Notes under the pieces: generated by a model
Databases searched by the model: none
Seen by the model: only the letters and a program-made list of their open reading frames with translations
What the model was told of the DNA's origin: nothing
Position numbers and translations under genes: made by a program
DNA from: Halobacteriales archaeon QS_4_62_28
GTDB lineage: Archaea; Halobacteriota; Halobacteria; Halobacteriales; Haloarculaceae
Assembly (NCBI GenBank): GCA_003021685.1
Contig: PXRO01000033.1
Span: 1-46,600 of the forward strand
Length of the DNA: 46,600 nt
Direction of reading: 5' to 3'
Shown: piece after piece, positions 26,088 to 46,314 of the stretch
Numbering within the stretch: position 1 is the stretch's first letter
How the letters are laid out: the number at the start of each line of letters is the position of its first letter

Positions 26088-26112
26088 TATCATTGCGTAC
26101 GTCCACCGGTAC
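26088..26112 (-). repeat. Dispersed repeat copy (TATCATTGCGTAC / GTCCACCGGTAC)
   Basis: On the minus strand it reads GTACCGGTGGAC then GTACGCAATGATA. It shares both words and a CCCGGG block with 4367-4410. It encodes the last residues (about CTGGRTQ) and the stop of the glycosyltransferase gene. Confidence 0.5.
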
Positions 26113-27232: not shown

Positions 27233-27249
27233 CTCGGGTTAAACCGTTG

Positions 27250-28353
27250 CTATCTGGCTCCGATAGCTAGAGGATCCTCGCCCCCGACGAGCCCTCGGTA
27301 GATGTCGGACAGTTGCTCGCCGACGCGGTCCAGTCCGTGTTCGCGGGCCGTCGCTTTCCCGTTTTCGCCGAGGCGCTGGCGGAGGTCGGGGTCGGCTTCG
27401 AGGCGTTCCAGTGCGTCGACGAACTCCTGTTCGGAGCCACAGATCAGACAGTCGTGGCCGTCCTCGTAGTACTCCCGAAAGGGCGGAATGTCCGAAATGA
27501 CACAGGCCGTTCCACAGGCCATCGCTTCCAGCACGACGATTCCCTGGTTTTCGACTCTGGCCGGGAACATGAATACGTCGCCGGCCGCATACGCGCCACG
27601 GATGTCGTCGACCCAGCCACTGAAGGTGACGTTGTCCGGCGGGTCGGTGGTCCACTTCCTGACCGTCGCGGATGCACTCGGTCCCGTCTCGTAGGTGCCA
27701 AACCAGGTGAAATCGTGCGGTGTCTGCTGGGCGACCTGGCAGAACGTCGACAGCCCCTTGCGCTCGAAGACGTTTCCGACGGCGAACACGCTCAGCCCGT
27801 CGATATCGTACTTCTCGCGGTACTCCTCCCGGAACCGCTCGTAGCCCGCGAGTCTGTCGAGATCGATTCCGTTGGTGATCGGTCGGATCGGTGCGTCGAT
27901 GGGATACGATTCCAGCACCCCCTTGGTGTACTCGCTGGGGCAGAGCACGAGATCTGCCTGCGAGTAGAACCACCTGAGATACTTTCCGAGTGCCGGGGCG
28001 ACGACGTTAGCACCCCGAAAACTATCTCTGAAGTCTTCTCGCGTGACGTGCGTGTGGAGGATAACGGGCGTATCGGTTCGCTTCGCGTGGTGAACCGTCG
28101 CGATAGTTCCCGGTCCGATCATATTGCAGTGGATCAGATCCACGTCCTCGAAAAACCGGCCTCCCGCTAGCTTCGACCGGACCGCACTGACCGGATGGTC
28201 GCCATTCCAGGGCGAGGTGACGACTTCGATGTCGGTCGGGTCAAGCGCCGCTCGCTGGTGTTTGACCGATGTGCCGATCCCGCTCCGGTCCAGTAGCCCT
28301 GCGATCTCCAAGTAGCTCAGCGCGCGCACAGAACGCTGTCCGACAGTGGCCAT
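27250..28353 (-). CDS. GT4-family glycosyltransferase
   Basis: This is a 367-residue GT-B enzyme. The acceptor-domain motifs are SYLEIAGLLDRSGIGTSVKHQ, VDLIHCNMIGPGTIATVHHAK and HTHVTREDFRDS. The donor domain has VFAVGNVFERKGLSTFCQVA and FMFPARVENQGIVVLEAMACGTACVISDIPPFREYYEDG. ATG 28353 (MATVGQRSVRALSYLE) is preferred over an upstream in-frame start at 28497, because the extra 48 residues are not conserved-looking and would overlap the divergent rnp4 promoter. It heads a minus-strand unit with the next GT4 and the PIG-L gene. Sugar and acceptor are unknown. Confidence 0.88.
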   Translation of the reverse strand: MATVGQRSVRALSYLEIAGLLDRSGIGTSVKHQRAALDPTDIEVVTSPWNGDHPVSAVRSKLAGGRFFEDVDLIHCNMIGPGTIATVHHAKRTDTPVILHTHVTREDFRDSFRGANVVAPALGKYLRWFYSQADLVLCPSEYTKGVLESYPIDAPIRPITNGIDLDRLAGYERFREEYREKYDIDGLSVFAVGNVFERKGLSTFCQVAQQTPHDFTWFGTYETGPSASATVRKWTTDPPDNVTFSGWVDDIRGAYAAGDVFMFPARVENQGIVVLEAMACGTACVISDIPPFREYYEDGHDCLICGSEQEFVDALERLEADPDLRQRLGENGKATAREHGLDRVGEQLSDIYRGLVGGEDPLAIGAR

Positions 28354-28413
28354 CCTAAGACTGTCGGATCCGAGGCGAAACGTATTCCCGTCGGCTGACC
28401 GGAGCGTTCTGTA

Positions 28414-28704
28414 ATGACTGCCGGGGAAACAGAGATCGCTCGCGAGCGTATCCAGCGCCTCCACGACCTCGCCCGTGAGGCGGCCGGTGCGGGCCACGAC
28501 GAACGCGCCAGAGCGTACGTCAGGCGCGCCCGTCGCGTCGCCGAGCGAAATCGTCTCGGACTCCCGCGGCGATTCAAGCGATTCACCTGCGACGAGTGCG
28601 ATGCCTACCTCCGGCCCGGCGTGAACGCCCGCGTCCGATTACAGGACGGTCACGTCGTCGTTACCTGTGACTGTGCCACGCAGGCACGATATCCGTACGA
28701 ATGA
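28414..28704 (+). CDS. rnp4: RNase P protein component 4
   Basis: This is a 96-residue protein. Its helical N-terminus (ERIQRLHDLAREAAGAGHDERARAYVRRARRVAERNRLGLP) is followed by a zinc ribbon with C59/C62 (CDECDAYLRPG) and C85/C87, the Rpr2/Rpp21 pattern. It binds RNase P RNA with Rnp1 and supports tRNA 5' processing. The order rnp4-yhbY-mscS is common in haloarchaea. Confidence 0.92.
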   Translation: MTAGETEIARERIQRLHDLAREAAGAGHDERARAYVRRARRVAERNRLGLPRRFKRFTCDECDAYLRPGVNARVRLQDGHVVVTCDCATQARYPYE

Positions 28705-31647: not shown

Positions 31648-32055
31648 TTACAGTAATCGGCTGTGCTCGACCTTGAGACACCTGTCCTGTACGACTTGCA
31701 GTCCGGCGTCTTCGGCCCGCTGGGCCGCCTCGTCGTCGCGGATCCCGAGCTGGGTCCAGAGCACGTTCACGTCGTCGCGTTCGAGCAGTTCGTCGACGAT
31801 TCCAGCCACCTCTTCACTGGGGCGGAACACATCGACGATATCGATTTCGCCGTCCACATCGGTCACCGAATCGTATGCTGTCTCCCCCAGCACCTCGTCT
31901 GCGAAGGGGTTGACCGGATTAATCTCGTAGCCCTGACGCTGCAGGTACGCAGGAATCTCGTGGGCGTCCTTCCCGGCGGTCGTCGAACACCCGACGACCG
32001 CAATCGCGTCGTAGTTGAGAATCTCACGGAGTTCGTCGTCGGATTCGACTGGCAT
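31648..32055 (-). CDS. CoA-binding (YccU-like) protein
   Basis: This 135-residue single-domain Rossmann protein reads: NYDAIAVVGCSTTAGKDAHEIPAYLQRQGYEINPVNP, then DIVDVFRPSEEVAGIVDEL, then VLWTQLGIRDDEAAQRAEDAGLQVVQDRCLKVEH. It matches the CoA_binding_2 family. ATG 32055 (MPVESDDEL) is preferred over an upstream start that would add 37 poorly conserved residues. It is convergent with the DUF5798 gene. Confidence 0.88.
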   Translation of the reverse strand: MPVESDDELREILNYDAIAVVGCSTTAGKDAHEIPAYLQRQGYEINPVNPFADEVLGETAYDSVTDVDGEIDIVDVFRPSEEVAGIVDELLERDDVNVLWTQLGIRDDEAAQRAEDAGLQVVQDRCLKVEHSRLL

Positions 32056-32101
32056 ATCGGCTCCTATCAGTGGCACTCGCAAAAGTGTAGTGTCGTCTCG
32101 T

Positions 32102-32719
32102 TCACCGGCTGCTTTCCGGCAAGTCAACGGCAGTGATCCCCGATTCGTCGAATTCGACTGTTCCATCGAACAGTTGCTGGATCGTGTGCAGCGTCGCCTC
32201 GTCGTGAGCGGTGGATTCGATCACGTGGACGCCGATAGCGTCGACATCATCGACGCGACTCGTAATCGCGTGCATGAACTCGAAGACCGTCTGGAGCGTC
32301 GAATACACCAGGAGCGTCGACAGTGAGTCGACCATGACGCGATTGCGCTCGTGCCCCAGTTCCCCGTAGAAGTACTCGATGAAATTCGAGAACCCGATCC
32401 CGATTCCGGAGATATCGACCGGCGAGGTTGCGTATTTTACCGTCAGTGTGTCTGTCGTCGAGCGTCCGATGTGTTCGGTCACACAGTCGACGATTCCGAG
32501 TGGCTGTTCGTCGGTTGGGTTCTCGATGTCGAACTGCGCGAGAATCCTGTCGGCACTGTCCCGTGTCGTGATGACGATTGCCCCCTCGTCGGTGTCCATC
32601 CCGTGACGAAGGATGTTGCTGGCCAACCGCCGCTTACCGGTCAACGGCGGTCCAGTAACGAGGATGTTCGTCCCCGGTGCGACCGTTCGTCCGTCGAGTT
32701 GCTCCCCCAGTTCGTACAT
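32102..32719 (-). CDS. RecA/KaiC-like ATPase (DUF7504-like)
   Basis: This 205-residue protein has a Walker A GPPLTGKR (23-30), a Walker B-like RVMVDSLSTLL (about 127-137) and a RecA-fold strand order, but no second KaiC domain. Haloarchaea have many such short RAD55/KaiC-like ATPases, often with signalling partners; the role of this one is unknown. It lies upstream of the CoA-binding gene on the same strand with a short gap, possibly an operon. Confidence 0.8.
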   Translation of the reverse strand: MYELGEQLDGRTVAPGTNILVTGPPLTGKRRLASNILRHGMDTDEGAIVITTRDSADRILAQFDIENPTDEQPLGIVDCVTEHIGRSTTDTLTVKYATSPVDISGIGIGFSNFIEYFYGELGHERNRVMVDSLSTLLVYSTLQTVFEFMHAITSRVDDVDAIGVHVIESTAHDEATLHTIQQLFDGTVEFDESGITAVDLPESSR

Positions 32720-32858
32720 CAGTTCTCCCTATCGATTATCCGGTGACCTGCAATACGGCTGCGCACTCGTTTCTTTATCAGCATAACTTATTCCCTTTCT
32801 GGAACCGGACTGGAAAATGGTACGTCTTGACACGACCAACGCCAGATGAATCGCGGGG

Positions 32859-32865
32859 TTTAAAT
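32859..32865 (+). promoter_or_regulatory. TATA box of tRNA-Arg
   Basis: TTTAAAT is centred about 31 bases upstream of the mature tRNA 5' end, implying a primary transcript start near 32889. Confidence 0.55.
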
Positions 32866-32892
32866 CGGGGACCATGCATAGCAACCAACACA

Positions 32893-32967
32893 GGGCGCTT
32901 AGCTCAGCCTGGACAGAGTACGTGGCTTCGGACCACGTTGCCGGGGGTTCAAATCCCTCAGCGCTCG
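32893..32967 (+). tRNA. tRNA-Arg (anticodon UCG)
   Basis: A cloverleaf is visible: acceptor GGGCGCU pairs with AGCGCUC (32960-32966) with discriminator G. The D arm is AGCUC...GAGU. The anticodon stem CGUGG/CCACG encloses loop CUUCGGA, giving anticodon UCG (reads CGA). The T arm GGGGG-TTCAAAT-CCCTC follows. There is no intron in the anticodon loop and CCA is not encoded. Confidence 0.92.
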
Positions 32968-33076
32968 TGAGTTCTACGCGAACGACAGTGAGCGCTGACG
33001 AGCAACAGCTCCGGATTCGAACTCTGGCAGCCGCGCGCAACGAAGTGAGTACGTCGCCGAAGTAGTGTCAACCGAC
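32968..33076. other. tRNA-downstream sequence with T-arm-like fragment
   Basis: About 50 bases after tRNA-Arg the text CCGGATTCGAACTCTGG looks like a partial T arm, but no stem forms and the rest of a tRNA is absent. No coding frame is convincing. Confidence 0.35.
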
Positions 33077-33235: not shown

Positions 33236-34303
33236 TCACTTGCCTTGATTGCTCGTGATCCCTTGGAAATCGTCGTCCCCGCTTGGGTCCGTCGATCCAG
33301 TGAGTGAGAGGGGGCCAGACCGCTTTTCTATTCGCTTGGCGAGGTGGTCGTTTTCAGCTTTGTCTTTCATCATCCCCTGTACGATCAGCAAGGTGCTGAT
33401 CAGGAAGTTCGTCAGTGTCTGTGCGGTGGCGTTGTCAACGTCTGCGGACCGTAGTGTATTAATGATGTAAACGACCGACGTGATTCCCCCGACCATACCG
33501 AGCGAGTACAGGAGAACGATCGGGTTGAAATCCTTGATTAAGTACTTTTCTTTTAACCGCCATACGAAGTTCTCGAAAAGCAGTCGGGAGACGCGTGGAA
33601 CGTAGGTACGATAATTGATACTACTGGTTTCGTCTTCATATCGAATCGGTGTCGGCACGTCGGCAACCACCATGTTGGCGACGTTGAGTTTGACCAGGAG
33701 GTCATTGCAGTAGCCGTAGAACTCGTACATTTCCTCGATATCGACGGTTTCGAGGGCTTCTTTCGAGATTGCCGAGTACCCGTTCTGTGAATCGCCGATG
33801 GCCCAGTACCCGCTGGCGATCTTACTCAGGCCGGACAGTAGCAGGTTGCCGAAAGTCCGAAAGGGTGGGACATTGCGACGTGTCTCTTGCCGCAGGAATC
33901 TGTTTCCCTTAGCGTAGTCTGCGTATCCCTCGACGACCGGGTCGATGATACCTTTGAGTAGCGCGGGATCCATCTGGCCGTCACCGCCCATGACGGCGAC
34001 AGTGTCGATATCGTCCTCCAGCGCTTTGAGATATCCCGTTTTGATCGCGCCACCGACGCCCCTGTTCGTTTCGTGCTGTATTGTGACGATCCTCGAATCG
34101 TAGACCTCGCTGTTTCCCGATATCGTCTGCTGTTTGATGTGGCTCGCCGCACGCTGGATTTCGGCCCACGTGTCGTCAGTTGAGTGGTCATCGATTACGT
34201 ACACGCGATCAACAAAAGACGGAACAGTAGAAACAACGTCCGAGATGTGATCCTCTTCGTTGTAGGCTGGTATGACGACACCAACAACATTGTCTTTATA
34301 CAT
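33236..34303 (-). CDS. GT2-family glycosyltransferase (DPM/AglJ-like) with C-terminal membrane helices
   Basis: This 355-residue protein has a GT-A domain with VVIPAYNEEDHISDVVSTV, VIDDHSTDDTW, NRGVGGAIKTGY and a catalytic VMGGDGQMDPALL, the DPM1-like pattern using an NDP-sugar and a polyprenyl phosphate acceptor. The C-terminal third has two membrane helices (about 268-292 and 300-325), which differ from plain soluble DPM1. It probably loads a sugar on dolichyl phosphate for export or glycosylation. The promoter is in the AT-rich 34304-34400 region. It opens the glycan island. Confidence 0.88.
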   Translation of the reverse strand: MYKDNVVGVVIPAYNEEDHISDVVSTVPSFVDRVYVIDDHSTDDTWAEIQRAASHIKQQTISGNSEVYDSRIVTIQHETNRGVGGAIKTGYLKALEDDIDTVAVMGGDGQMDPALLKGIIDPVVEGYADYAKGNRFLRQETRRNVPPFRTFGNLLLSGLSKIASGYWAIGDSQNGYSAISKEALETVDIEEMYEFYGYCNDLLVKLNVANMVVADVPTPIRYEDETSSINYRTYVPRVSRLLFENFVWRLKEKYLIKDFNPIVLLYSLGMVGGITSVVYIINTLRSADVDNATAQTLTNFLISTLLIVQGMMKDKAENDHLAKRIEKRSGPLSLTGSTDPSGDDDFQGITSNQGK

Positions 34304-34513: not shown

Positions 34514-35452
34514 TCAACTGTCGCTGAGGACATCGTCGTAGACGCCACGAAGCTCTCGACCCATGTGCCTGAGACTGAACTCCTGGACCCGATCACGGCC
34601 TCCGACCATCTCATCTGACTCGAGGATCTGTTGAAGCATTCTGACAAGTTCCCCGTCGGTCTGGCAGACTGCGCAGTTGTCGATATCGGCTAGCAGGTCG
34701 GATACGTCACCGACATCCGTCGAGATGACCGGTAGATTGCACGCGAGAGCCTCTTTGACCGTGTTGGGCGAGCCTTCGCGCTTCGAGGTAAGTAACAGCG
34801 CGTCTGCGGCGTTCATATAAATCGGCACGCGTTCGTGTGAGACGCCGTACACGGCGTGGAGTTCGACTGGTACGTCGAATCGGTCGTCAACGACGTCGAC
34901 GACGGACTCGGCACGGGGATAATCCTTTACAGATCGAGATGGGTCGTAGGGAAAGAGGACGTGTTTGGCGTTCCGTTTCCAACCGACTTTCGACCTGGCC
35001 CAAGAAGCGGGCTCGTCCGTGAAGCGTTCCGTGTCGATGCCATGTGGGATAACGTGTGCATCACAATCGATCTGATCGGCCATCTCGTCAGTCATGACGA
35101 TGACTGCATCACAGAGCGACGAGCAGACTTCGCTCACCCGTCCGTAGCGGCCAAGCACGTCCGATCCCCAGAGGGTGAGGACAACAGGACGCAATGGCTG
35201 TGTGAGGGCGATCGGTGCCGTTAACCCGTAATTAGCGTGGACGACGTCGAAATCACCGGCGACGGTACGGTGGAGTGCCTGTCCATGAAAGCGAGCGTAA
35301 TCGAGCACCGAGCGTGTGTCTCCTGACGACTGAGGAACCGGCAATACAGTGCAAGATATGCCGCGACTTTCTAACACCTGGACTTGTTGCTCGAAGAACG
35401 GCCGGCGCGTAGTTACGAGCTGGAGCACCTCAATGTCGGAGTCGTCGTCCAT
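34514..35452 (-). CDS. GT4-family glycosyltransferase
   Basis: This is a 312-residue GT-B enzyme, shorter than usual. The N-terminal half has FDVVHANYGLTAPIALTQ and TLWGSDVLGR. The C-terminal half has HVIPHGIDTERF, ALLLTSKREGSPNTVKEALACNLPVISTDVGDVSDLL with the GT4 EX7E pair. It lies in the glycan island on the same strand as the GT2 gene. Sugar and acceptor are unknown. Confidence 0.87.
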   Translation of the reverse strand: MDDDSDIEVLQLVTTRRPFFEQQVQVLESRGISCTVLPVPQSSGDTRSVLDYARFHGQALHRTVAGDFDVVHANYGLTAPIALTQPLRPVVLTLWGSDVLGRYGRVSEVCSSLCDAVIVMTDEMADQIDCDAHVIPHGIDTERFTDEPASWARSKVGWKRNAKHVLFPYDPSRSVKDYPRAESVVDVVDDRFDVPVELHAVYGVSHERVPIYMNAADALLLTSKREGSPNTVKEALACNLPVISTDVGDVSDLLADIDNCAVCQTDGELVRMLQQILESDEMVGGRDRVQEFSLRHMGRELRGVYDDVLSDS

Positions 35453-35760
35453 CGTCGGAATACGCTATGTCTATTTGATCGGATAGTAGGCGTCTTTGTT
35501 ACAACGCAGCTATCGAGTGACTGGTATGTCACAGAGAGATAAGGTCGTCTTAATAATCGTCGTAATAAAACATCGAGCTGTGAACGATGACCGTGATTCG
35601 ACGGCTGCCAGCTCGATCTGTAACGGTGCTGATTCGTTGGTACTGATGACAGCCGAAGTTGGTAGTACCGTCGTCAAACACTGTTACTAACTAAGAATGT
35701 AGCTCTTTTACTCTTACAAAACAATGGCCTCGGTGACGTGATCCTAATGGAGTGGTCGCT
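35453..35760. other. AT-rich intergenic region
   Basis: This separates the minus-strand GT4 from the plus-strand deacetylase and probably holds divergent promoters (AT-rich around 35548-35570 and 35690-35715). A short plus-strand frame (35496-35690) has non-haloarchaeal codon use and no motif, so it is not annotated. Confidence 0.45.
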
Positions 35761-36720
35761 ATGGGATCAGTAGTTCTTTCGATTGACGCAGAACTCGGGT
35801 GGGGACACCACGATTTTGATACCCCACCGTCGAACCGTGTTGAGGCGGGACGAACCGGATGGTCTCGCCTCGTTGCCTTGCTCGATGAGTTTGAGGTGCC
35901 CGCGACGTGGGCCATCGTCGGACACCTCTTTCTGGAGGAGTGTGACGGACGACACGCCGACCACCCGTCACCATCTGGATGGTTCGACCGGGAACGGAAA
36001 CAGTGGAGATCTCGGCCGGACCTCCGGTTTGGACAAGAACTCATCGAGGCAGTCAGAGCAGCATCGGTCGACCATGAAATCGGATCACATTCGTTTACAC
36101 ACGTCGTCTTCGACGAACGAGCGACATCACGCAATCTAGCACGGGCCGAAATCGAGGAGAGTCTCGACGCAGCCAAGAATTTCGGACTTGACCTGCAATC
36201 GTTCGTGTTTCCGCGGAATGTCGTCGGCCATCGGGATCTGCTCGCCGAATATGGGTTCCAGTGTTATCGCGGCCAGTCGCCTATCAATCGTGACAACTCG
36301 TTCATGCCTCGGCGGCTACGACGACTACTTCGAGGCGTCCGGCCGAATGACGAATCACTGCTCGTCGAACCGACGATGGACGGGTACGGGCTTGTTAACG
36401 TTCCCGCATCGATGTTTCTCTACTCCTTCGAGGGGCAATTGAGAGATATATTGGCACCGGTTATCGGTGACCTCATGGTCCGACAAGCCAAGCGTGGTAT
36501 CGACCTGGCCGCCCGCCGAGACGGACTTTTTCACGTGTGGCTCCACCCTAATAATCTCCACCGAGCGTACACTGTCGTGCGTCTCCGTCGCATACTCGCT
36601 TACCTCGCCGAACGTCGCGATGCCGGCGACATCACTATCGAGACAATGGACGAAGTCGCCGACCGAGTCCGGTCAGCCGGCACACTGGAGGCCGGTTCGA
36701 ACACGAGCAACGGCCAGTAG
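35761..36720 (+). CDS. NodB-type polysaccharide deacetylase
   Basis: This protein of about 319 residues is a carbohydrate esterase family 4 member. VVLSIDAELGWG carries the N-terminal Asp, HEIGSHSFTHVVFD the H-x3-H metal site, and FVFPRNVVGH and FHVWLHPNNL the later motifs. It removes N-acetyl groups from glycan residues such as GlcNAc. The start is ATG 35761 or GTG 35752. There is no clear signal peptide, so the substrate may be a cytoplasmic lipid-linked or nucleotide-linked sugar. It begins the plus-strand series of the glycan island. Confidence 0.88.
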   Translation: MGSVVLSIDAELGWGHHDFDTPPSNRVEAGRTGWSRLVALLDEFEVPATWAIVGHLFLEECDGRHADHPSPSGWFDRERKQWRSRPDLRFGQELIEAVRAASVDHEIGSHSFTHVVFDERATSRNLARAEIEESLDAAKNFGLDLQSFVFPRNVVGHRDLLAEYGFQCYRGQSPINRDNSFMPRRLRRLLRGVRPNDESLLVEPTMDGYGLVNVPASMFLYSFEGQLRDILAPVIGDLMVRQAKRGIDLAARRDGLFHVWLHPNNLHRAYTVVRLRRILAYLAERRDAGDITIETMDEVADRVRSAGTLEAGSNTSNGQ

Positions 36721-36885: not shown

Positions 36886-38514
36886 ATGAGTGGTCCCGCT
36901 TCGTCCTCACTTCGAACACTGCTTGTCGGCATCGATGCCGCCTGTCTTCCGGTGGTTGAGCCGCTGTTCGAAGACGGGGACCTTCCGACGCTCCGAGCAT
37001 TTTTTACTGACGGAACTGGGGGGTCGTTGAAATCCCAGATTCCCCCGTGGACGGCCAGTGCCTGGCCATCACTGTATACGGGTATGAACCCGGGCAAACA
37101 CGGTGTCTTCGGATTTCTGGAGTTTGAAGGCTACGACTGGGACGTGGTCAACGCAACCAGCGTTTCGGAGCGTGGGGTGTGGGAACTGCTCGACCGGCAC
37201 GGACTGACGAGTGTCGTCGTCAACGTCCCAGTAACCGAGCCACCACGACCGTTCGACGGCGCACTCATCCCGGGATACACTGCACATGAGAACCCGGCAA
37301 CACATCCGGAGGGTATTCTCGATGATGTTCGTGATGCAATCGGTGGTTATCGGATTTACTCTGAAGGGAAACTCGACGACGACGCGGTTGATCAGTGCCA
37401 GTCGTTCGTCCGCATGCGCGGGGAGGCATTTCGCTATCTCGCCAACAGCTTCGATCCCGACTTTGGCTTCCTTCAGTTTCAACAGACAGATACTATCTTT
37501 CACGAGTCCCCTGGCGATGACGACCTCGTGCGGGCCGTGTACAGGGAGGTTGACCGGCAGATCGCCCAAACGCTCGATGCCTGTGATCCTGCTACCGTCA
37601 TCGTCGTCAGCGACCACGGTATCGGCCGTTGCGAGGGCCGGGAGTTCCGTGTCAACGAATTACTGCGTGACGAGGGATTCGTTGAGACGACGGTCAACGA
37701 ATCCGGAATGCCGACCTGGGTTGCGCTACGCGAGCAACAACTCCAAGGCGAAGCATCCGAACAGAGTCGAGCATACTCTGTTCTCGGATCTGCCGTGCGT
37801 GTCGCCGCAACGTTTGGGATGACCATCCAGCGAGTCACGAGATTGCTGGAGGCACTTGGGCTCACGGACGTTGTCGCCTCTGTGATCCCGAACGACGTAC
37901 AGCGATCTGGTACCGAACAGGTCGATTTCGAAGAATCGCGAGCGTACATGCGCGACTCGGTCGAACTTGGCGTCCGCATCAATCTTGAAGGACGCGAACC
38001 TGCAGGGACTGTTCCGGAAAGCGATTACGAAGCAGTCCGTCGGAAACTGATCGACGCGCTCGAATCGGTGACGACACCCGGTGGTGAACCGGTTTTCGAG
38101 GATGTGGCCCCCCGAGAAGAGTACTTCCAGGGACCGCACACCGCAGACGCAGTCGACATTATCACTGTCCCAGCCGATTTCGACCAGTACCTTTCAGCAC
38201 AGTTGTATAGAAAGCAGTTCGGGGAACCGACGGAACCATACATCCACAAGCGCCACGGACTCATCGCCGCACGTGGGCCGACCATCGATACTACTGTTGC
38301 GTGGAGCGGAGCACACCTGTTCGATGTTGCCCCGACCGTACTTTCGACGCTTGATGTTCCGTGGGACGAGCGAATGGATGGGTCCCCGCTCCCGTTTGTT
38401 ACCGCGACTGACCCGCGACAGTACCCGTCGGTTGAGCCCCGTGATCGTCTCCGGACCGACGACGAAACTGTCGAGAAGCGGCTTGCCGACCTCGGATATA
38501 TCGAGAGGCAGTAG
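36886..38514 (+). CDS. Alkaline-phosphatase-superfamily phosphodiesterase/phosphotransferase, copy 1
   Basis: This 542-residue soluble protein starts LLVGIDAACLPVVEPLF (first metal Asp). IPPWTASAWPSLYTGMNPGKHGVFGF carries the likely nucleophile Thr56 and the HG motif, and VIVVSDHGIGRCEG the second metal site Asp-His. This is the type I phosphodiesterase/nucleotide pyrophosphatase branch of the AP superfamily. No membrane helix or signal peptide is visible. It is a close paralogue of 42185-43795. The next gene starts two bases after its stop, so it forms a unit with FemAB-like genes. The substrate is not known. Confidence 0.85.
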   Translation: MSGPASSSLRTLLVGIDAACLPVVEPLFEDGDLPTLRAFFTDGTGGSLKSQIPPWTASAWPSLYTGMNPGKHGVFGFLEFEGYDWDVVNATSVSERGVWELLDRHGLTSVVVNVPVTEPPRPFDGALIPGYTAHENPATHPEGILDDVRDAIGGYRIYSEGKLDDDAVDQCQSFVRMRGEAFRYLANSFDPDFGFLQFQQTDTIFHESPGDDDLVRAVYREVDRQIAQTLDACDPATVIVVSDHGIGRCEGREFRVNELLRDEGFVETTVNESGMPTWVALREQQLQGEASEQSRAYSVLGSAVRVAATFGMTIQRVTRLLEALGLTDVVASVIPNDVQRSGTEQVDFEESRAYMRDSVELGVRINLEGREPAGTVPESDYEAVRRKLIDALESVTTPGGEPVFEDVAPREEYFQGPHTADAVDIITVPADFDQYLSAQLYRKQFGEPTEPYIHKRHGLIAARGPTIDTTVAWSGAHLFDVAPTVLSTLDVPWDERMDGSPLPFVTATDPRQYPSVEPRDRLRTDDETVEKRLADLGYIERQ

Positions 38515-38516
38515 CC

Positions 38517-39641
38517 GTGGCCGAACTCACATCGACGTTCCACGAGAGCATTACCACGGTAAACCGGAACCAGTGGAACAATCTGGTCGAGCAGTCCGAC
38601 CTCGGATGTGCATTCCACCGGTATGAGTGGCTGCTAGCGGTTGAGGCGGGACTCGGATACACCCCGGCACACGTCGTCGTCCGCAAGGATGGGAACCCGA
38701 TTGGACTCTTCCCGAACTTCGTCACTGAACTCGATATCCCCTACGAGCATTTGCTGTCCCTCCTTCCAACCGAACAGCTCCCGATGGGGCTCTCTTCGAA
38801 TCTCGAGGAACTTTCCTTCCAGAATGTGCCGCTGAAGCAGTTAATATCGACCTCTCCGGGCTTTGGCGGCCCAGTTATTGGAAGCAACGAGAGCGGGTGC
38901 CTGGACCACATGTTCCAGCAAATATCGGAGAACTGCGGCCGGTCTGTCATCTCACACGGTATCAAAGCGAAGGAGCTTGGATACATGCGATACGGGAAAA
39001 CACTGGCAAAGCGAGGATACAGCCCGACGTTGCTGGATTGTCGGTTCGAACTTAACCTCGATTACGACTTCGACGAACTCGTCGCGCGGATGGATAGTGG
39101 CCGACGGAAAGCGCTCCGGGATGCCCGCAATTCGGGGTACGAGGTCTCTGAACTCGATTTCGAGAACGTCGTTTCGAGCACCTACGACCGGTATGTTACC
39201 GATATGGAACGTGTTAGTGGCTCTACGCATTCGCGAGCGTTCTTCGAAGAGCTTGCTGATAGGTTCGCAGACCGCCTGAACGTCTTCAGTGTCGAAGTTG
39301 ACGGGACTGAGGCCGGTCGATACGTGCACGTTCTCGACACAGAACAGTCGACACTCCACTACTTTTACTCTGCGATCGGCGACGAATCGAACTACGAGTA
39401 CAATCCCTCGGAACTCCTCCACGCATACGCCATCGAGTGGGGCCAGGAGAACGGGTATCGGTACTACGATTTCGGAAGCTCGGGATCGAGCTTTTTTGAT
39501 GGAACGTTCCGATACAAGCAACGATACGGTGCTCGGGTGATCCCGACGCTCCGGTGGATGAAAGGGTACGCACCACTGCTCTGGACCGGATACAAACTCG
39601 GCCGACGCGCCTATCAGCAACTCGCATACGGAGACCAATGA
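38517..39641 (+). CDS. FemAB-like GNAT aminoacyl/acyltransferase 1
   Basis: This 374-residue protein has two GNAT-like halves typical of FemAB/FemX and BacA-type glycan-modifying transferases: CAFHRYEWLLAVEAGLGYTPAHVVVRKDGNPIGLFP, then DSGRRKALRDARNSGYEV and GYRYYDFGSSGSSFFDGTFRYKQRYGARVIP. Family members transfer aminoacyl groups from tRNA, or acyl groups, to lipid-linked or polysaccharide substrates. It begins with GTG 38517, two bases after the AP-like stop. The stop overlaps the next gene (ATGA). It is distant from the FemAB-like pair at 39638 and 43792. Confidence 0.8.
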   Translation: MAELTSTFHESITTVNRNQWNNLVEQSDLGCAFHRYEWLLAVEAGLGYTPAHVVVRKDGNPIGLFPNFVTELDIPYEHLLSLLPTEQLPMGLSSNLEELSFQNVPLKQLISTSPGFGGPVIGSNESGCLDHMFQQISENCGRSVISHGIKAKELGYMRYGKTLAKRGYSPTLLDCRFELNLDYDFDELVARMDSGRRKALRDARNSGYEVSELDFENVVSSTYDRYVTDMERVSGSTHSRAFFEELADRFADRLNVFSVEVDGTEAGRYVHVLDTEQSTLHYFYSAIGDESNYEYNPSELLHAYAIEWGQENGYRYYDFGSSGSSFFDGTFRYKQRYGARVIPTLRWMKGYAPLLWTGYKLGRRAYQQLAYGDQ

Positions 39642-40639
39642 GCGTCGAAATAAGAGCATTCGAACCAGAAGAGTTTGACCGATGGAACGGTTTGGTCGAT
39701 CAATCGCCGAACACGAACGTCTTCCATAGAGCCGAGGCCCTCCAGTTGCAGGCTCAACATGCTGGCGCAACGCTACACCCACTTGTCGGATTCAAAGGGC
39801 AAGAGCCCGTGGGGATCTGGCCACTCTTCGAATTGAAGAAAGGACCGTTCACAGCCGTCTTCTCTCCGCCACCGCCACTCTGGATCCACCGTCTGGGGCC
39901 GGCAATGGTGAACATGGAGAAACTCAAGCAGCGCAAGATGGATCGGCGCACGCGCGATTTCGTCGACGGCTGTTTGCAGTGGCTTACAGATAATTGCGGT
40001 CCGAAGTACGTGCGAGTCACGACAGAAGTCAGCTTCCGTGATGTACGCCCGTTCGAATGGAACGATGCCGATGTGACGCCGGCACACACGTACGTTGTCG
40101 ATCTGACGCCGGAAAAAGAGGAGTTACTCATGACGTTCAGTAGCGACGCCCGCAAGAACGCCCGCACCGCCGACGATGAGTACACCATCGAACTGGGTGA
40201 CCCTACGGATGTCGACCGCATCATCGAACAGGTCCAGGCCCGATATAGGGCACAAGGCAAGGCGTTTAATTTCCCAACTGGATTTGCACGTGATCTGGCC
40301 GCTGAGTTGCCGGAGGGCCGCATACGACCCTACTGTTGCTATTACGAGGGAGAGTACGTCGGCGGTATCCTGACGTACGAAGACGACTGGATCTATCGAT
40401 GGCACGGTGGGGTCAAGACTGACATCGATTTGCCTGTCAACGATTTACTCGACTGGCACATCATGACAGACGCCATGGAGCGTGGCATCGAGAAGTACGA
40501 TCTCGTGGGCGCTGACGACCGTCGCATCAGTAGCTACAAGGCCAAGTTCGGCCCGGCACTGCAGACGTTTTACACCATCGAACGAAGCACACTATCGGCG
40601 AAGGCACTCCTCGGACTGTACAGGCGTCTTCAAAAATAA
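39638..40639 (+). CDS. FemAB-like GNAT transferase 2
   Basis: This 333-residue protein has the same double-GNAT layout as its neighbour: VFHRAEALQLQAQHAGATLHPLVGFKGQEPVGIWPLFELKKGP, then DARKNARTADDEYTI, DLPVNDLLDWHIMTDAMERG and KYDLVGADDRRISSYKAKFGP. It is a close paralogue of 43792-44892 (the HPLxGxKGQEPVGIxPLFEL and VNDxLDWxxMTD segments match). ATG 39638 overlaps the stop of FemAB-like 1, so the three genes from the AP-like enzyme are translationally coupled. The substrate is unknown. Confidence 0.8.
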   Translation: MSVEIRAFEPEEFDRWNGLVDQSPNTNVFHRAEALQLQAQHAGATLHPLVGFKGQEPVGIWPLFELKKGPFTAVFSPPPPLWIHRLGPAMVNMEKLKQRKMDRRTRDFVDGCLQWLTDNCGPKYVRVTTEVSFRDVRPFEWNDADVTPAHTYVVDLTPEKEELLMTFSSDARKNARTADDEYTIELGDPTDVDRIIEQVQARYRAQGKAFNFPTGFARDLAAELPEGRIRPYCCYYEGEYVGGILTYEDDWIYRWHGGVKTDIDLPVNDLLDWHIMTDAMERGIEKYDLVGADDRRISSYKAKFGPALQTFYTIERSTLSAKALLGLYRRLQK

Positions 40640-40720
40640 GATGGTCTTCCCCGAATAGATGTGTTGTAACGCCCCGGTAACCGCTAAGTAACAGAGATAA
40701 TCGGTTCCGAAGACCCGACG

Positions 40721-41842
40721 ATGAAAGAGCAGCCATCGTTGATTGGGAGGCTGAGTACGACCCAATCGTCGGCTGGATTCGAGGAATTTCTCGAAGAACA
40801 CGTAGACAACTACTGGTTCTACGGGTACGGCAAGGGTGCGCTTCGGGATGGACTGGCACCATTCGTTTCTCCTGGCGAGACGGCGTTCCTCCCTGCATAT
40901 ATTCCAGACGCCGTTGCCAAACCGTTCGAGGAACTCGGCCTCGACACGGTGTACTACGCGGTCACTGAAGACCTCGCTCCGAATGTTACAGACCTCGAAT
41001 CCCGCATTGACGAGGACGCGGGAGTTGTCGTCTCCGTTGACTACTTCGGTTTCCCTGCTCCCGAGTGGTCAGCCGTCGCTGACCTGACCACCGAGTACGA
41101 TTGTCTTCATCTCGATAATTGCTCGCACTCGCCTTTCTCTCTCGTCGATGGAACACTTCTCGGGACTCGCGGCGATATCGGTTTTACGAGCATGCGGAAG
41201 GTCCTCCCGATGCCGGACGGAGCGTGCCTGTACGTCGATGAGACGCTCGCTGGTGAGATAGTCCCGTCTGAGTACGCTGGAAAAAACGAACGGCTCAACG
41301 CCGCCGACATCAGTTTTCTCGGCCGGTCAGCGGCAACGGAAATACTGGGTCCCACTGGGACAATCCAGAGCACGATTGCAAACCTCGCCGTCGAAAACGC
41401 TTCGAATTGTGCCGGACCGAGCGAACGGTACGAGGCGTCGAAATCTCCCATGTCTCGATTATCGAGTGCTGTCCTGTCGCGGGTCGACCCGGCGAGGATA
41501 CGAGGGGCACGACGGGCAAACTACGCGGCCTGGGACGCGGGACTGACTGCACGACCCGATGTCCGTCCCGTGCGTGACGAGGTAACGCCGGGGGTCTGCC
41601 CACAGGTATATCCAGTCGAAGCGACCGTCCCAGAGCGGTTCCTGGCTGATCTAACGACCTGTGGTGTCGATGCGGCTACCTGGCCGCGACTTCCGAAAGC
41701 TGTCAAGGCCGTGTCTGAATACCGGAATGCGCGTCGACTCGCTGACCAGGTGATCACTCTCCCCGTCCACCAGCAGATAGATAGATCCGAGATCGCTGCA
41801 ATCTGTCGAGAGCTGACGACGCAGCACGACACGGGTGAGTAA
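40721..41842 (+). CDS. DegT/DnrJ/EryC1-family PLP-dependent enzyme
   Basis: This 373-residue fold-type I PLP protein has LHLDNCSHS with the cofactor-binding Asp (about 132), and GFTSMRKVLPMPDGA with the likely Schiff-base Lys160. The N-terminal YGKGAL is typical of sugar aminotransferases, which make amino sugars from keto-sugars. The middle 190-300 is less conserved than in standard DegT proteins, so a divergent role is possible. It fits with the deacetylase and GTs in amino-sugar glycan synthesis. tRNA-Ser follows. Confidence 0.75.
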   Translation: MKEQPSLIGRLSTTQSSAGFEEFLEEHVDNYWFYGYGKGALRDGLAPFVSPGETAFLPAYIPDAVAKPFEELGLDTVYYAVTEDLAPNVTDLESRIDEDAGVVVSVDYFGFPAPEWSAVADLTTEYDCLHLDNCSHSPFSLVDGTLLGTRGDIGFTSMRKVLPMPDGACLYVDETLAGEIVPSEYAGKNERLNAADISFLGRSAATEILGPTGTIQSTIANLAVENASNCAGPSERYEASKSPMSRLSSAVLSRVDPARIRGARRANYAAWDAGLTARPDVRPVRDEVTPGVCPQVYPVEATVPERFLADLTTCGVDAATWPRLPKAVKAVSEYRNARRLADQVITLPVHQQIDRSEIAAICRELTTQHDTGE

Positions 41843-41868
41843 GACAATTATACCCATCTTATAGACAG

Positions 41869-41877
41869 TATAATAAT
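41869..41877 (+). promoter_or_regulatory. TATA box of tRNA-Ser
   Basis: TATAATAAT is centred about 33 bases upstream of the mature tRNA 5' end. Confidence 0.55.
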
Positions 41878-41905
41878 ACCACCTCTGCCCAAACAGGTGA
41901 GACGA

Positions 41906-41990
41906 GCCGAGGTAGTCTAGCCTGGCCAAGACGGTTGCTTCGAACGCAACTGTCCGAGAGGACTCGAAAGTTCAAATCTTTCCCTCGGCG
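41906..41990 (+). tRNA. tRNA-Ser (anticodon CGA)
   Basis: The acceptor GCCGAGG pairs with CCTCGGC (41983-41989), discriminator G. The anticodon stem GTTGC/GCAAC encloses loop UUCGAAC, giving anticodon CGA (reads UCG). A long variable arm (TGTCCGAGAGGACTC) marks it as class II. The T arm has TTCAAAT. There is no intron and CCA is not encoded. It lies between the two AP/FemAB-like modules. Confidence 0.92.
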
Positions 41991-42052
41991 TTTTCCGTGG
42001 CAGCCTCAAGTGCGTAGTGTCTCGTCTCTGTCAGAGCCATCACTGTCACTAT

Positions 42053-42064
42053 GTACCGGTGGAC
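42053..42064 (+). repeat. Dispersed repeat word GTACCGGTGGAC
   Basis: This is the third occurrence of the word seen in the repeats at 4367 and (minus strand) at 26101-26112. The surrounding sequence is less conserved. Confidence 0.35.
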
Positions 42065-42184
42065 ACCATTGCCACACTTGGATACAATAGCGGTACCGGC
42101 CGCGAATCCGATATCCAGTAATATTCACATCATTACTATTCCCGAATGGCTTCTGCGAGCACTATGGTGGTGAAGTAAACGAAG

Positions 42185-43795
42185 ATGCGTTGTTTTGTTA
42201 TCGGCATTGATGCCGCGTGTCAGCGGGTTCTCGATCCACTATTTGACCAGGAAGTCACGCCGACACTCGAATCGATCTTTCGACGGGGGGTCAGTGACAG
42301 TCTCCATTCACAGATACCCCCATGGACTCCGAGCGCATGGCCCTCACTCTGCACCGGGACTAACCCTGGAAAGCACGGCATATTTGATTTCCTCGCGTTC
42401 GACGGCTACGACTGGGATGTCGTGGACGCCACTCGACTTCACGAGCCGGCGTTGTGGGAATATCTCTCTGCTGCTGGGTACGAGAGCGTCGTCGTCAACG
42501 TCCCCCTGACACACCCGCCGAAACCGTTCGACGGTGCGCTCGTTCCGGGTTATATAGCACCGGAGAGACCGGTGTGTCATCCCGAGGGCCTCCTTGCAGA
42601 GATTCGAGACGCCATCGGGGACTACCGTATTTATCCGGACAGTAGCGACGACGGGACGACCGATGACTACGCGGCCCACCGTGAAGTCGTCCACATGCGT
42701 GGCGAGGCGTTCGAATACCTTGCAGAGCGGTTCGATCCGGCGTTTGGCTTTCTCCAGTTCCAACAGACTGACACCGTATTCCACAAGTATCCTGACGACT
42801 GGGACGCTGTCCGGGCAGTCTACGAAGCGGTCGATGCGGAACTCGACCGGATACTCGACCGATTCGACCCGGAGACGGTGCTGGTCGTCAGTGACCACGG
42901 CATGGGAGAGTACGACGACTACGAGTTTCGGGTCAACGAGTTTCTTCGCGAGACGGGCCACGTCGCCACCACACGAGGTGGCACGGGAATGCCGTCCTGG
43001 GCGCTGGTGCGAGATTCGAAATTAACCAGCGGTGAGACGGGTGATCCCGACCGGAGTCCCCTCGGCAGTCTAATGCGACAGGCGGCCCGTCTCGGGATCA
43101 CGACACAGCGCGTCGTCGCTGTCCTCGACGCACTGGGCCTGGCCGATACTGTTGGCCGATTTGTACCCCCATCAGTCGCGAGTTCAGGTGCCGAACAGGT
43201 GGATTTTTCCGCATCGACGGCGTTCATGCGGTCCCGGAGTGAGTTGGGTGTCAGAATCAATCTCGAAGGGCGCGAACCGCACGGACAGGTACCGCAAGAC
43301 GAGTACGAAGACGTTCGGTCCGATCTGATACGTCTGTTCACGGACGTGCGGACGCCGGACGGAGACCGTGTCTTTGCGGATGTCGCGCCTCGGGAGGCGT
43401 ACTTCGATGGGCCAGTGATCGAGGAGGCTGTCGACATCGTTCTCGTCCCAGCGAACTTCGAACAGTTCCTCTCGGCTCGTCTCGCAGGTGCCACGTTTGG
43501 AACGCCTTCGGAACCGTGGAACCACAAACTCGATGGAATCGTCGCTGCCGCTGGAACCGGCGTCGACACGTCGGTATCGCTGGGTGATGCTGATCTCTTC
43601 GATATCGCACCGACGGTCCTCGCACTGTTCGGTCTTCCCCGTGGGGCTCGAATGGATGGCACGCCATTGCCAATTGTCGACAGTGCTGGCGTCAGCGAGT
43701 ACGACAGCATCGACCGGTCGGACTCGAATATCTCGGCGACGAGTGGTGAAGTTCAGGAACGGCTCGAAAATCTCGGCTACATCGAAAATATATGA
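42185..43795 (+). CDS. Alkaline-phosphatase-superfamily phosphodiesterase/phosphotransferase, copy 2
   Basis: This 536-residue protein is collinear with copy 1 at 36886 over its whole length: FVIGIDAACQRVLDPLF, IPPWTPSAWPSLCTGTNPGKHGIFDF (likely nucleophile Thr48), VLVVSDHGMGEYDDYEFRVNEFL and the C-terminal FDIAPTVLALFGLPRGARMDGTPLP. Its stop overlaps the start of the next gene by four bases. It is a second AP/FemAB-like module on the far side of the tRNA-Ser, probably from gene duplication. The substrate is not known. Confidence 0.85.
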   Translation: MRCFVIGIDAACQRVLDPLFDQEVTPTLESIFRRGVSDSLHSQIPPWTPSAWPSLCTGTNPGKHGIFDFLAFDGYDWDVVDATRLHEPALWEYLSAAGYESVVVNVPLTHPPKPFDGALVPGYIAPERPVCHPEGLLAEIRDAIGDYRIYPDSSDDGTTDDYAAHREVVHMRGEAFEYLAERFDPAFGFLQFQQTDTVFHKYPDDWDAVRAVYEAVDAELDRILDRFDPETVLVVSDHGMGEYDDYEFRVNEFLRETGHVATTRGGTGMPSWALVRDSKLTSGETGDPDRSPLGSLMRQAARLGITTQRVVAVLDALGLADTVGRFVPPSVASSGAEQVDFSASTAFMRSRSELGVRINLEGREPHGQVPQDEYEDVRSDLIRLFTDVRTPDGDRVFADVAPREAYFDGPVIEEAVDIVLVPANFEQFLSARLAGATFGTPSEPWNHKLDGIVAAAGTGVDTSVSLGDADLFDIAPTVLALFGLPRGARMDGTPLPIVDSAGVSEYDSIDRSDSNISATSGEVQERLENLGYIENI

Positions 43796-44892
43796 CAATC
43801 GACATTACCTGCATCACGAAAGAAGAATTCGACACCTGGGACCGGTGTGTCGACCGGTCACCGGAAGCGACCCTCTTCCATCGGTCAGCCGTTCTCGAGC
43901 AACTGGCCGACTACGCCAGCGGGACACTCCACCCGCTCATTGGATATAAAGGACAGGAGCCGGTCGGGATACTGCCGTTGTTCGAACTAAGCAAGGGTCC
44001 AGCGCGAGCAGTGTTCTCGCCGCCGCCGGCGACGTGGGTGGAGTATCTCGGACCGGCGACCCTGAACATGTCGAAACTTTCCTGCCGGAAGGCCGAGCGC
44101 CGCCATCAGCGGTTCATCGATGCCTGCTTCGAGTACGTCGACGAGGTGATCGATCCCATTGTCACGCGTATCGAAAGTCCGCCCCAATACAACGATGTCC
44201 GGCCGTTCCAGTGGGGCGGGTATACGACGATAACTGAGTATACCTACGTCGTCGAGCTGACAGACGAGGACGACATGCTCTCACGGTTCAGCAGTGATGC
44301 ACGTGGCAACATTCGTGACAGCTACGACACTGACTTCACTATTTCTCGGGAAGATGAGAGCGCACTTCACCTGATCCTTGACCAGGTCGAGCGACGGTAT
44401 CGGGAACAAAACACTCCAGTAACGCTTCCGTCGGCGTTTTTTAGAGACCTCTACCAATCACTCAGTGACGACGAACTCAGGCCGTACGTCTGTCGCGTCG
44501 ATGGGGAGTTCGTCGGCGGTATCATCGCTGCTGCCGACGACGACACTGCATACCGCTGGATCGGCGGTGTTCGTCCAGAAAAGGCGGTCGACTTCCCCGT
44601 CAATGACTTCTTGGACTGGAGGGTTATGACTGACATGATGGCCGATGGCCGGGAGTATTACGACCTCGTAGGCGCTAGTGCCGAACGTATCAACGAGTAC
44701 AAGGCGAAGTTTGACCCGACCCTGGAGACGTTCTACAGAATCCAGAGCAACCCGCTCCTGTTCCACGCGTTCAGTTCTGCGTACGAACAGTTCGAATGGT
44801 ACAGGTTGGCGCTGAGCGGTGATATCAACAACTCCGGTGGCTCCGTACAACAACTTCGCAATACAGTCACTAACCTGTTCGGCGGCAATTGA
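43792..44892 (+). CDS. FemAB-like GNAT transferase 3
   Basis: This 366-residue protein is a close paralogue of the transferase at 39638: LFHRSAVLEQLADYASGTLHPLIGYKGQEPVGILPLFEL, then SSDARGNIRDSYDTDFTI and FPVNDFLDWRVMTDMMADGREYYDLVGASAERINEYKAKFDP. A C-terminal extension of about 30 residues (YEQFEWYRLALSGDINNSGGSVQQLR) is specific to this copy. It is translationally coupled to AP-like copy 2 (ATGA), repeating the layout at 36886-40639. Confidence 0.8.
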   Translation: MTIDITCITKEEFDTWDRCVDRSPEATLFHRSAVLEQLADYASGTLHPLIGYKGQEPVGILPLFELSKGPARAVFSPPPATWVEYLGPATLNMSKLSCRKAERRHQRFIDACFEYVDEVIDPIVTRIESPPQYNDVRPFQWGGYTTITEYTYVVELTDEDDMLSRFSSDARGNIRDSYDTDFTISREDESALHLILDQVERRYREQNTPVTLPSAFFRDLYQSLSDDELRPYVCRVDGEFVGGIIAAADDDTAYRWIGGVRPEKAVDFPVNDFLDWRVMTDMMADGREYYDLVGASAERINEYKAKFDPTLETFYRIQSNPLLFHAFSSAYEQFEWYRLALSGDINNSGGSVQQLRNTVTNLFGGN

Positions 44893-44952: not shown

Positions 44953-46314
44953 TTACCGGTCATCTCGACCGTATATACTGTAAAGCTTCGAATACAGCGA
45001 TATCGGCACGGATCGGGCGAGGGTTCGGATCGCGCGTGATCTGTTCGACCGGCCGGCGATGGTGTCGAAATCGGTCGACTGAAGCCACTGACAGAACGCA
45101 TCACCGCCTTCGACCGGGAGCATCGTATCCGAGTCTACTTTCGTCTGGAGTTCCTGCCAGTAGACGGCGTGGTGTCGATCCGGAAGCCATTCGCCAGCCT
45201 CGAAGCGATTGCATGCCTGTTCGAAGGCGGTCGGAGTGAGCACTAACCCGTGCTGGTTTGGATCACAACCGGCGACGGCGAGGCCGAAAGCCGTTCGAAA
45301 ACAGTTTTCACACTGTTTGCAGTTGCGTTGTCTCGCTGGTTTCTCGCAGGCCCACACTGGCAAGTCCGGGTGGTGGGAGGTGAGGAAATCGGCGACGACT
45401 TCGACGCGTTCCTGGCGGGTGAGTTCGAATCCGTCGTGGACGACATCTGTGCCAGCCCACGCGAGCGACTCGTCGATGGCGGGGTGTGATCCCCATGGCA
45501 TCCCCTGACCATCCCAGTGATCCAGCAGCTCTGGCGTGGGGAACTCATCCCAGTGTCGTGCGCCGACGTAGAGCGTACCGATGTCTGTGGCGACCGTCAG
45601 CGGGGCTGCCAGTCCGAGGAGGCCAAGCCCGTCGGCGACCGCGCTGTACCAGCCGCCGTCGTGGTCGTCCGTGAAGTGGATACTTAGCATCGACGAGTTC
45701 AGGATGTCGAGCACGTTCGACTGGACGAACTGCGCTTCGACGCCGAAGCGGTCGGCGTACTCGCGGACGTTTGCCTGCCAGTCCCACCAGCGCCGTTCCT
45801 CGTCAGGGCCCACGTGCCACGCCTGGATGCTGAGTAGCGTCGACACCTCGTTGCGGTGTCTGGCGTATGGCGACAATGAATTGATCCCGCCAGTGAACAG
45901 GAGACCGGTTTCGGCACCGTCACCACGGTGTTCGGTAGTCGGGGCTTCGTCGATAACTACACGGCCGCCCTCGATGAACGTCGGATACATCTCGCGTAAC
46001 ACCGCACCAACTGTTTCGAGCGAATCGAGGAAGCGACGGTCGACTGACGAGGCGTGGACATCGGCTCCGAGTGCCCACGCGACCGGACACAGGTGTGCGA
46101 GTACCGGAACCGTCAAGACCGATTCCGGAACGGCCGAGATGTCGACATCGTACGAGGCGGTGAACGTCTGGCTACCGAAGAAGGGCGCGATATCGTCGGT
46201 GTACTCGACCTCACACTCGATATCAGTTCCGTCGACAGTGACGTCAGTGACAGCGACTGTTTTAGTACCGGAGTCGTCGTCCAGCATCTGGGCCTCGTCG
46301 ATGGGGGTGGGCAT
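44953..46314 (-). CDS. PP-loop-like (QueC/adenine-nucleotide-hydrolase-like) zinc protein
   Basis: This 453-residue protein has TGGINS at 141-146 in the place of the SGGxDS ATP-binding loop of adenine nucleotide alpha-hydrolases, then a Rossmann-like stretch (ESLAWAGTDVVHDGFELTRQERVEVVADFL) and a C-terminal zinc-like CKQCENC motif. Ser to Thr and Asp to Asn changes in the loop suggest altered or lost ATP cleavage. Similar proteins occur in bacterial polysaccharide clusters but have no known function. It is divergent from a sugar nucleotidyltransferase and convergent with FemAB-like 3. Confidence 0.65.
   Translation of the reverse strand: MPTPIDEAQMLDDDSGTKTVAVTDVTVDGTDIECEVEYTDDIAPFFGSQTFTASYDVDISAVPESVLTVPVLAHLCPVAWALGADVHASSVDRRFLDSLETVGAVLREMYPTFIEGGRVVIDEAPTTEHRGDGAETGLLFTGGINSLSPYARHRNEVSTLLSIQAWHVGPDEERRWWDWQANVREYADRFGVEAQFVQSNVLDILNSSMLSIHFTDDHDGGWYSAVADGLGLLGLAAPLTVATDIGTLYVGARHWDEFPTPELLDHWDGQGMPWGSHPAIDESLAWAGTDVVHDGFELTRQERVEVVADFLTSHHPDLPVWACEKPARQRNCKQCENCFRTAFGLAVAGCDPNQHGLVLTPTAFEQACNRFEAGEWLPDRHHAVYWQELQTKVDSDTMLPVEGGDAFCQWLQSTDFDTIAGRSNRSRAIRTLARSVPISLYSKLYSIYGRDDR

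Follow-up and report, generated by a model that had tools for sequence, protein, structure and literature searches.

Coupled AP-superfamily and FemAB-like genes in haloarchaea: candidate modules for an aminoacylated amino sugar

The closest described counterpart of the genes treated here is the Wbp/Vim pathway of Porphyromonas gingivalis and Tannerella forsythia. The paper on this pathway gives the linking sugars as 2-N-seryl,3-N-acetylglucuronamide and 2-N-glycyl,3-N-acetylmannuronic acid, reports that a change in the vimA gene led to a change of amino acid, and places VimA under the family model TIGR03019. It further speculates on sortase acceptors; nowhere in the main text is the word archaea used. 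A second counterpart is the XrtA/PEP-CTERM type of exopolysaccharide cluster, with a deacetylase (TIGR03006), a FemAB protein (TIGR03019) and an amidotransferase (TIGR03108); in the accessible part of the Rubrivivax table the deacetylase and FemAB genes of such a cluster are adjacent. Here we describe two gene modules from a stretch of 46,600 nucleotides (the window) on contig C33 of Halobacteriales archaeon QS_4_62_28, a haloarchaeon whose genome is assembled into 57 contigs of 2.64 Mb in total. In each module a gene for an enzyme of the alkaline phosphatase (AP) superfamily is followed by one or two genes for FemAB-like (Fem) proteins. With moderate confidence we propose that an amino sugar is built and decorated by these modules, Fem aminoacylating the sugar amine and AP acting on a phosphate ester of this sugar. 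What we observed directly is the coupling and conservation of the genes, their active-site residues, the folds predicted for the proteins and the genes nearby.

The first module begins with AP1 (36886-38514), separated by a 2-base gap from Fem1 (38517-39641, GTG start), which shares an ATGA overlap with Fem2 (39638-40639). The second consists of AP2 (42185-43795) and Fem3 (43792-44892), again overlapping at an ATGA. The tight coupling reported in a preliminary description of this DNA was thereby found at all junctions. All five genes lie on the plus strand, as do a NodB/CE4-type polysaccharide deacetylase ahead of AP1 (35752-36720, over the PF01522 cut-off), which we propose sets free the sugar amine, and a divergent DegT-type sugar aminotransferase between the modules (40721-41842, over the PF01041 cut-off). 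AP1 and AP2 matched PF01663 with 121 and 115.9 bits (gathering threshold 23). Fem1, Fem2 and Fem3 all scored over the cut-off of PF13480.

The two families were found together well beyond this genome. Among 292 genomes of Halobacteria (AP at E ≤1e-60, Fem at 1e-30), AP occurred in 161 and Fem in 170; 149 had both, 12 AP only, 21 Fem only and 110 neither. This corresponds to an odds ratio of 65 (Fisher p 6e-44) for genomes that are phylogenetically non-independent. The module idea of the preliminary description, which hung on such co-occurrence, was further borne out by gene positions. In a phylum-wide search with a complete AP list and at most three candidates scored per genome, 41 of 67 core AP genes had a Fem gene within 300 nucleotides, 50 had one within 10 kb and 17 had none, whereas random places on the same contigs, whose extents are approximate, gave a mean of 2.1 in 67 for the shortest distance. 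Fem followed within 10 nucleotides on the same strand in 29 of the 67. A Fem gene lay within 10 kb of 3 of 14 middle-scoring and 4 of 14 low-scoring AP genes. A scan of named genomes yielded 54 relatives of AP1, all haloarchaeal by their titles, with a Fem relative directly downstream in 31. Among the matches listed, which comprise 150 AP places, at least 66 had Fem no more than 10 nucleotides downstream on the same strand, at least 39 pairs stood in the ATGA-overlap register, and 43 had no listed Fem. Fetched loci provided 61 AP rows, 39 with Fem within 300 nucleotides and 44 within 6 kb. Outside the Halobacteria, AP was detected at E 1e-50 in six genomes, three of which have a Fem gene no more than 2 kb away. 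When 20 AP-Fem loci were compared with 37 stretches chosen at random from 20 control genomes, 13 of which were shared, DegT was found in 14 against 0, GlmM in 15 against 1, GlmS in 16 against 1 and GlmU in 10 against 1. DegT relatives adjoined AP-Fem in Natrinema and related genera.

The predicted model of Fem2 adopted a tandem GNAT fold of the FemA/FemX type, and in its structural comparison Fem-type structures outscored the annotated GNATs that use coenzyme A (CoA) by some 8 Z units or more. The best curated match of the Fem proteins was TIGR03019, and their tyrosine-lysine (Y-K) pair was invariant. They differ from the FemABX/streptothricin-type transferases (FemA, FemX, Orf11, Sbb17/Sba18), with 11-15% identity in alignments. 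FemA and FemX act on peptidoglycan, which such archaea are not known to possess. It is conceivable, if unlikely, that the Fem proteins are ordinary acyl-CoA N-acyltransferases (acetyl or other) whose product is an N-acylated amino sugar, as for WecD or WbpD. The names point that way, since PF13480 is called an acetyltransferase (GNAT) domain and most annotated Fem records read GNAT family N-acetyltransferase. The structural ranking argues against it, as does the CoA-loop pattern [RQ]xxGx[GA]: it was unconserved, being present in 10 of 24 Fem rows, four times at residues 253-258 and otherwise elsewhere. Moreover, several related clusters also carry a hexapeptide acyltransferase.

The AP model showed the catalytic-domain fold of nucleotide pyrophosphatase/phosphodiesterases (NPP), which were also its nearest structures, among them ENPP3 solved with UDP-N-acetylglucosamine. 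Residues D17, T56, D202, H206, D243, H244 and H454, read as nucleophile and metal ligands, were invariant in 29 of 29 aligned AP rows, so that the module idea passes the metal-site check named in the preliminary description. Six of the seven positions lie within stretches aligned to solved members; the seventh, H454, is a putative metal-site residue, assigned from what is generally known of the family. A low-confidence insert at about residues 276-339 and the residue F77, to which we return below, set AP apart from the NPP/phosphonoacetate hydrolase branch of the superfamily (PF01663). A fold of this kind, with a relative solved in complex with UDP-N-acetylglucosamine, would also suit an enzyme with a housekeeping role, which hydrolyses nucleotide sugars or polyprenyl-phosphate sugars to remove dead-end intermediates and shares no more than an island with Fem. 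AP without Fem, and further AP-family genes beside flippase genes, are in keeping with such a role; a same-strand Fem within 10 nucleotides of so many core AP genes is more specific than island membership, and we hold the housekeeping role to be rather unlikely.

The preliminary description had placed one pathway in a glycan setting, with an aminoacyl-type transferase, and these parts we retain. It had also seen in AP a phosphoethanolamine- or phosphoglycerol-type transferase that puts a second substituent on the same glycan. Although PF01663 also includes the glycosylphosphatidylinositol ethanolamine-phosphate transferases, and AP adjoins other sugar-tailoring genes (a carbamoyltransferase in 6 of 61 rows, a formyltransferase, an asparagine-synthase-like gene), this role, as that of a membrane-anchored, extracytoplasmic enzyme, is improbable given the NPP fold and a crude test in which AP1 and AP2 had neither a transmembrane-grade stretch (highest 19-residue hydropathy 1.39 and 1.37) nor a twin-arginine pattern within the first 40 residues.

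In the amino sugar scheme that we favour, the decorated amino sugar would become part of a glycan or glycolipid on the haloarchaeal surface. The sugar is probably nucleotide-linked, and its free amine would result either from deacetylation by the NodB-type enzyme or from amination by the DegT enzyme. Fem2 and Fem3, and probably Fem1, would then transfer an amino acid from aminoacyl-tRNA to this amine, in analogy to VimA, for which amino acid transfer is proposed in Porphyromonas, and to Orf11, which uses Gly-tRNA in the BD-12 pathway. AP would be a cytosolic NPP-fold phosphodiesterase or phosphotransferase whose substrate is a phosphate ester of that sugar, such as a nucleotide- or lipid-diphosphate bond, and the translational coupling would let both enzymes meet one substrate. 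We infer the aminoacyl-tRNA donor and the sugar amine acceptor from the features described above; the reaction of AP is the least certain part of the scheme. A more far-reaching version seems very improbable to us: with an archaeal Wbp/Vim-like toolkit, aminoacyl sugars would be made whose free amine an archaeosortase links to surface proteins, and the AP-Fem module would be the haloarchaeal branch of it, AP placing the aminoacyl sugar on its lipid carrier by a cytosolic phospho-sugar transfer without precedent. The archaeosortase core was present in 380 of 392 genomes, including all 115 Fem genomes of the sample, and its co-occurrence with Fem is therefore uninformative. The sortase search in the present genome returned no match to PF09721 and one to TIGR04125.

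Should the scheme be correct, tRNA would supply archaea with the amino acids that they attach to sugars of their surface glycans. To our knowledge, tRNA-dependent aminoacylation has so far been tied to bacterial walls and lipids, to antibiotics and to the proposed linking sugar of Porphyromonas. The scheme would also give a function to FemAB-like proteins that occur in 170 of 292 Halobacteria genomes and are mostly annotated as GNAT acetyltransferases, make the AP enzyme a new player in aminoacyl-sugar pathways, and open a route to a direct test of archaeosortase glycan acceptors. Searches of one open library, judged mostly from the listed records, showed no publication that we recognised as dealing with an archaeal AP-FemAB or VimE-FemAB pair.

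Comparison with the Wbp/Vim pathway brought the deacetylase to the fore. The preliminary description had listed NodB as a neighbour of the first module; it does adjoin it, but a NodB-type deacetylase seems to be more than that, namely the older partner of Fem. Outside the Halobacteria, Fem was found at E ≤1e-15 in 71 sampled genomes of the phylum. At 17 loci from this group, the deacetylase gene directly preceded Fem in 13 and lay within 3 kb in two (L163, L165); one locus ended with its contig (L173) and one was without deacetylase (L175). VimE was the best NCBIfam match of 15 of the 15 deacetylases scanned from such loci (4e-12 to 1e-28). With Pfam, one of six was exactly at the PF01522 cut-off, one was below it and four gave no match. 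VimE was likewise the best match of haloarchaeal deacetylases near Fem in loci L178, L096 and L157. In a quick tree with midpoint root, the AP-linked Fem group and a second haloarchaeal group were neighbours among deacetylase-linked sequences, and the first Haloferax Fem branched off basally in the former. Fem1 fell into a separate, distant clade, and in some 10 kb around its relatives in loci L179 and L180 no gene is annotated as AP-family.

The likeness to Wbp/Vim consists of a deacetylase adjoining a TIGR03019-like transferase outside the Halobacteria, of Wbp-type genes clustered with Fem in Haloferax mediterranei and Salinigranum, and of an asparagine-synthase-like gene that three plasmids carry in the vicinity of Fem or of a relative of Fem1. 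In Haloferax mediterranei, genes for an acyltransferase, DegT, Gfo/Idh, a nucleotide-sugar dehydrogenase, wecB and a deacetylase form a row that ends with two Fem genes on pHME505; the Fem cluster of Salinigranum is similar. The window module, in contrast, has AP but neither Wbp genes nor a VimE-like deacetylase; none of WbpA, WbpB, WbpE and WbpD was recognised among ten genes scanned around it. In L178 a Wbp-like set stands beside Fem. The AP partner is the new part, and what the window shows with its modules belongs to a broader set in archaea. With the XrtA/PEP-CTERM clusters the Fem proteins share TIGR03019 as best match, but all scores stayed under the equivalog cut-offs, and no AP member was noticed in the accessible part of the Rubrivivax table. 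An amidotransferase gene near a Fem1-like gene on a plasmid of Halorussus limi (L180, 5269-7167, minus strand) reached 535 bits to TIGR03108 (cut-off 816.9).

Several findings weigh against the aminoacylated amino sugar as the product of these modules. On the Fem side, in a PDB sequence search with a profile of the Fem C terminus, the FemX alignment ended at residue 296 or 297, just before K301, the candidate for FemX Lys305, and the TIGR03019 scores were 57.1 bits for Fem1 and 29.0 and 35.9 for the others, at a cut-off of 260.35. For AP, F77, invariant in the 29 aligned rows, occupies the position of the asparagine that comes after the nucleophile in phosphonoacetate hydrolase, so the phosphoryl site differs. 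The pairing itself is incomplete: 21 of the 292 genomes had Fem without AP, and 17 of the 61 AP rows had no Fem within 6 kb (13 of the 17 lie no more than 6 kb from a deacetylase gene, and in 6 a carbamoyltransferase gene is 300 nucleotides away or less), hence AP does not need Fem. Since 18 of the 20 loci in the neighbour test belong to one family, the enrichment of DegT and Glm genes is largely one inherited arrangement, and in the same test NodB, Wbp-type and glycosyltransferase genes were unenriched (WbpB-like in 0 of 20 against 2 of 37). The VimE scores of the deacetylases from outside the Halobacteria, 45-100 bits, were far under the cut-off of 440, and in the NCBIfam scan the NodB protein of the window and the deacetylases of L092 and L061 had no VimE match. 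The window DegT matched no model well and was not WbpE-like, and the Wbp-like set of this genome lies on another contig, C31. With a deacetylase and a DegT that are not of the VimE and WbpE types, the sugar may differ from that of the Wbp/Vim pathway.

On contig C31 (loci L187 and L182) we observed acyltransferase, DegT, Gfo/Idh and deacetylase genes with a dehydrogenase gene in opposite orientation, and the archaeosortase ArtA on the same contig. A Fem of the second type stands at the end of contig C55 (L075) of the same genome.

The two modules had been described as a duplication, of which the paralogy stands. AP1 and AP2 are 55% identical and Fem2 and Fem3 47%, with Fem1 at 22-23% to either. 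A recent local duplication does not hold for AP, as both copies have closer relatives elsewhere. AP1 was sister to the AP of locus L092, from a genome of another family, where the gene order is NodB, GT2 (opposite strand), AP, Fem1, Fem2; AP2 grouped as sister with an AP from contig C50 of the present genome, beside which a Fem gene stands in divergent orientation. The approximately unbiased test rejected a tree with AP1 and AP2 as sisters (p 0.013), so that both tree and test speak against a local tandem duplication of AP, and did not reject Fem2 and Fem3 as sisters (p 0.056).

Other genes were also seen beside AP. In L045, L047, L049, L054, L060 and L071 a carbamoyltransferase gene followed AP, with a deacetylase nearby; one member of this carbamoyltransferase-linked deacetylase cluster (L040, 8211-9728) had a lipoprotein-like start. 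In single cases an asparagine-synthase-like gene overlapped the start of AP and a formyltransferase gene adjoined it. Further AP-family genes were directly coupled to a polysaccharide flippase gene (L077, 1978-5108, and L094, 748-3968, both on the minus strand).

The modules belong to a stretch, from 33 kb on, with two glycosyltransferases, the NodB-type deacetylase, AP1-Fem1-Fem2, the DegT aminotransferase, AP2-Fem3 and ORF453. The G+C content falls from 0.61-0.66 to 0.54-0.59 starting at about 32 kb. A tRNA-Arg gene (32893-32967) lies close to this drop (about 32000-33000), a possible island boundary. The glycosyltransferases, both on the minus strand, are a GT2 enzyme (33236-34303), AglJ-like with a score far under the AglJ model cut-off, and a GT4 enzyme (34514-35452), a family profile match in keeping with the glycan context. 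ORF453 (44953-46314, minus strand) is a possible further part of the set, its relatives being tail-to-tail with AP in L079 and L080. It had zero Pfam or NCBIfam matches at E 0.1; together with two relatives it has a common GLLFTGG stretch and a C-x2-C-x2-C cluster, by eye PP-loop ATPase-like. A tRNA-Ser gene (41906-41990) was considered as a functional partner and is treated as a coincidence because no tRNA gene lay within 2 kb of AP or Fem in the 43 loci scanned, some of which are without AP-Fem. The part of C33 beyond the window, which ends at 52174, has genes for a nucleotidyltransferase-domain protein and a DUF1616 protein. Finally, a minus-strand gene at 25157-25987 was by eye a PIG-L/LmbE-like deacetylase with an AHPDD motif, beside glycosyltransferase-like genes at 26090-28497.
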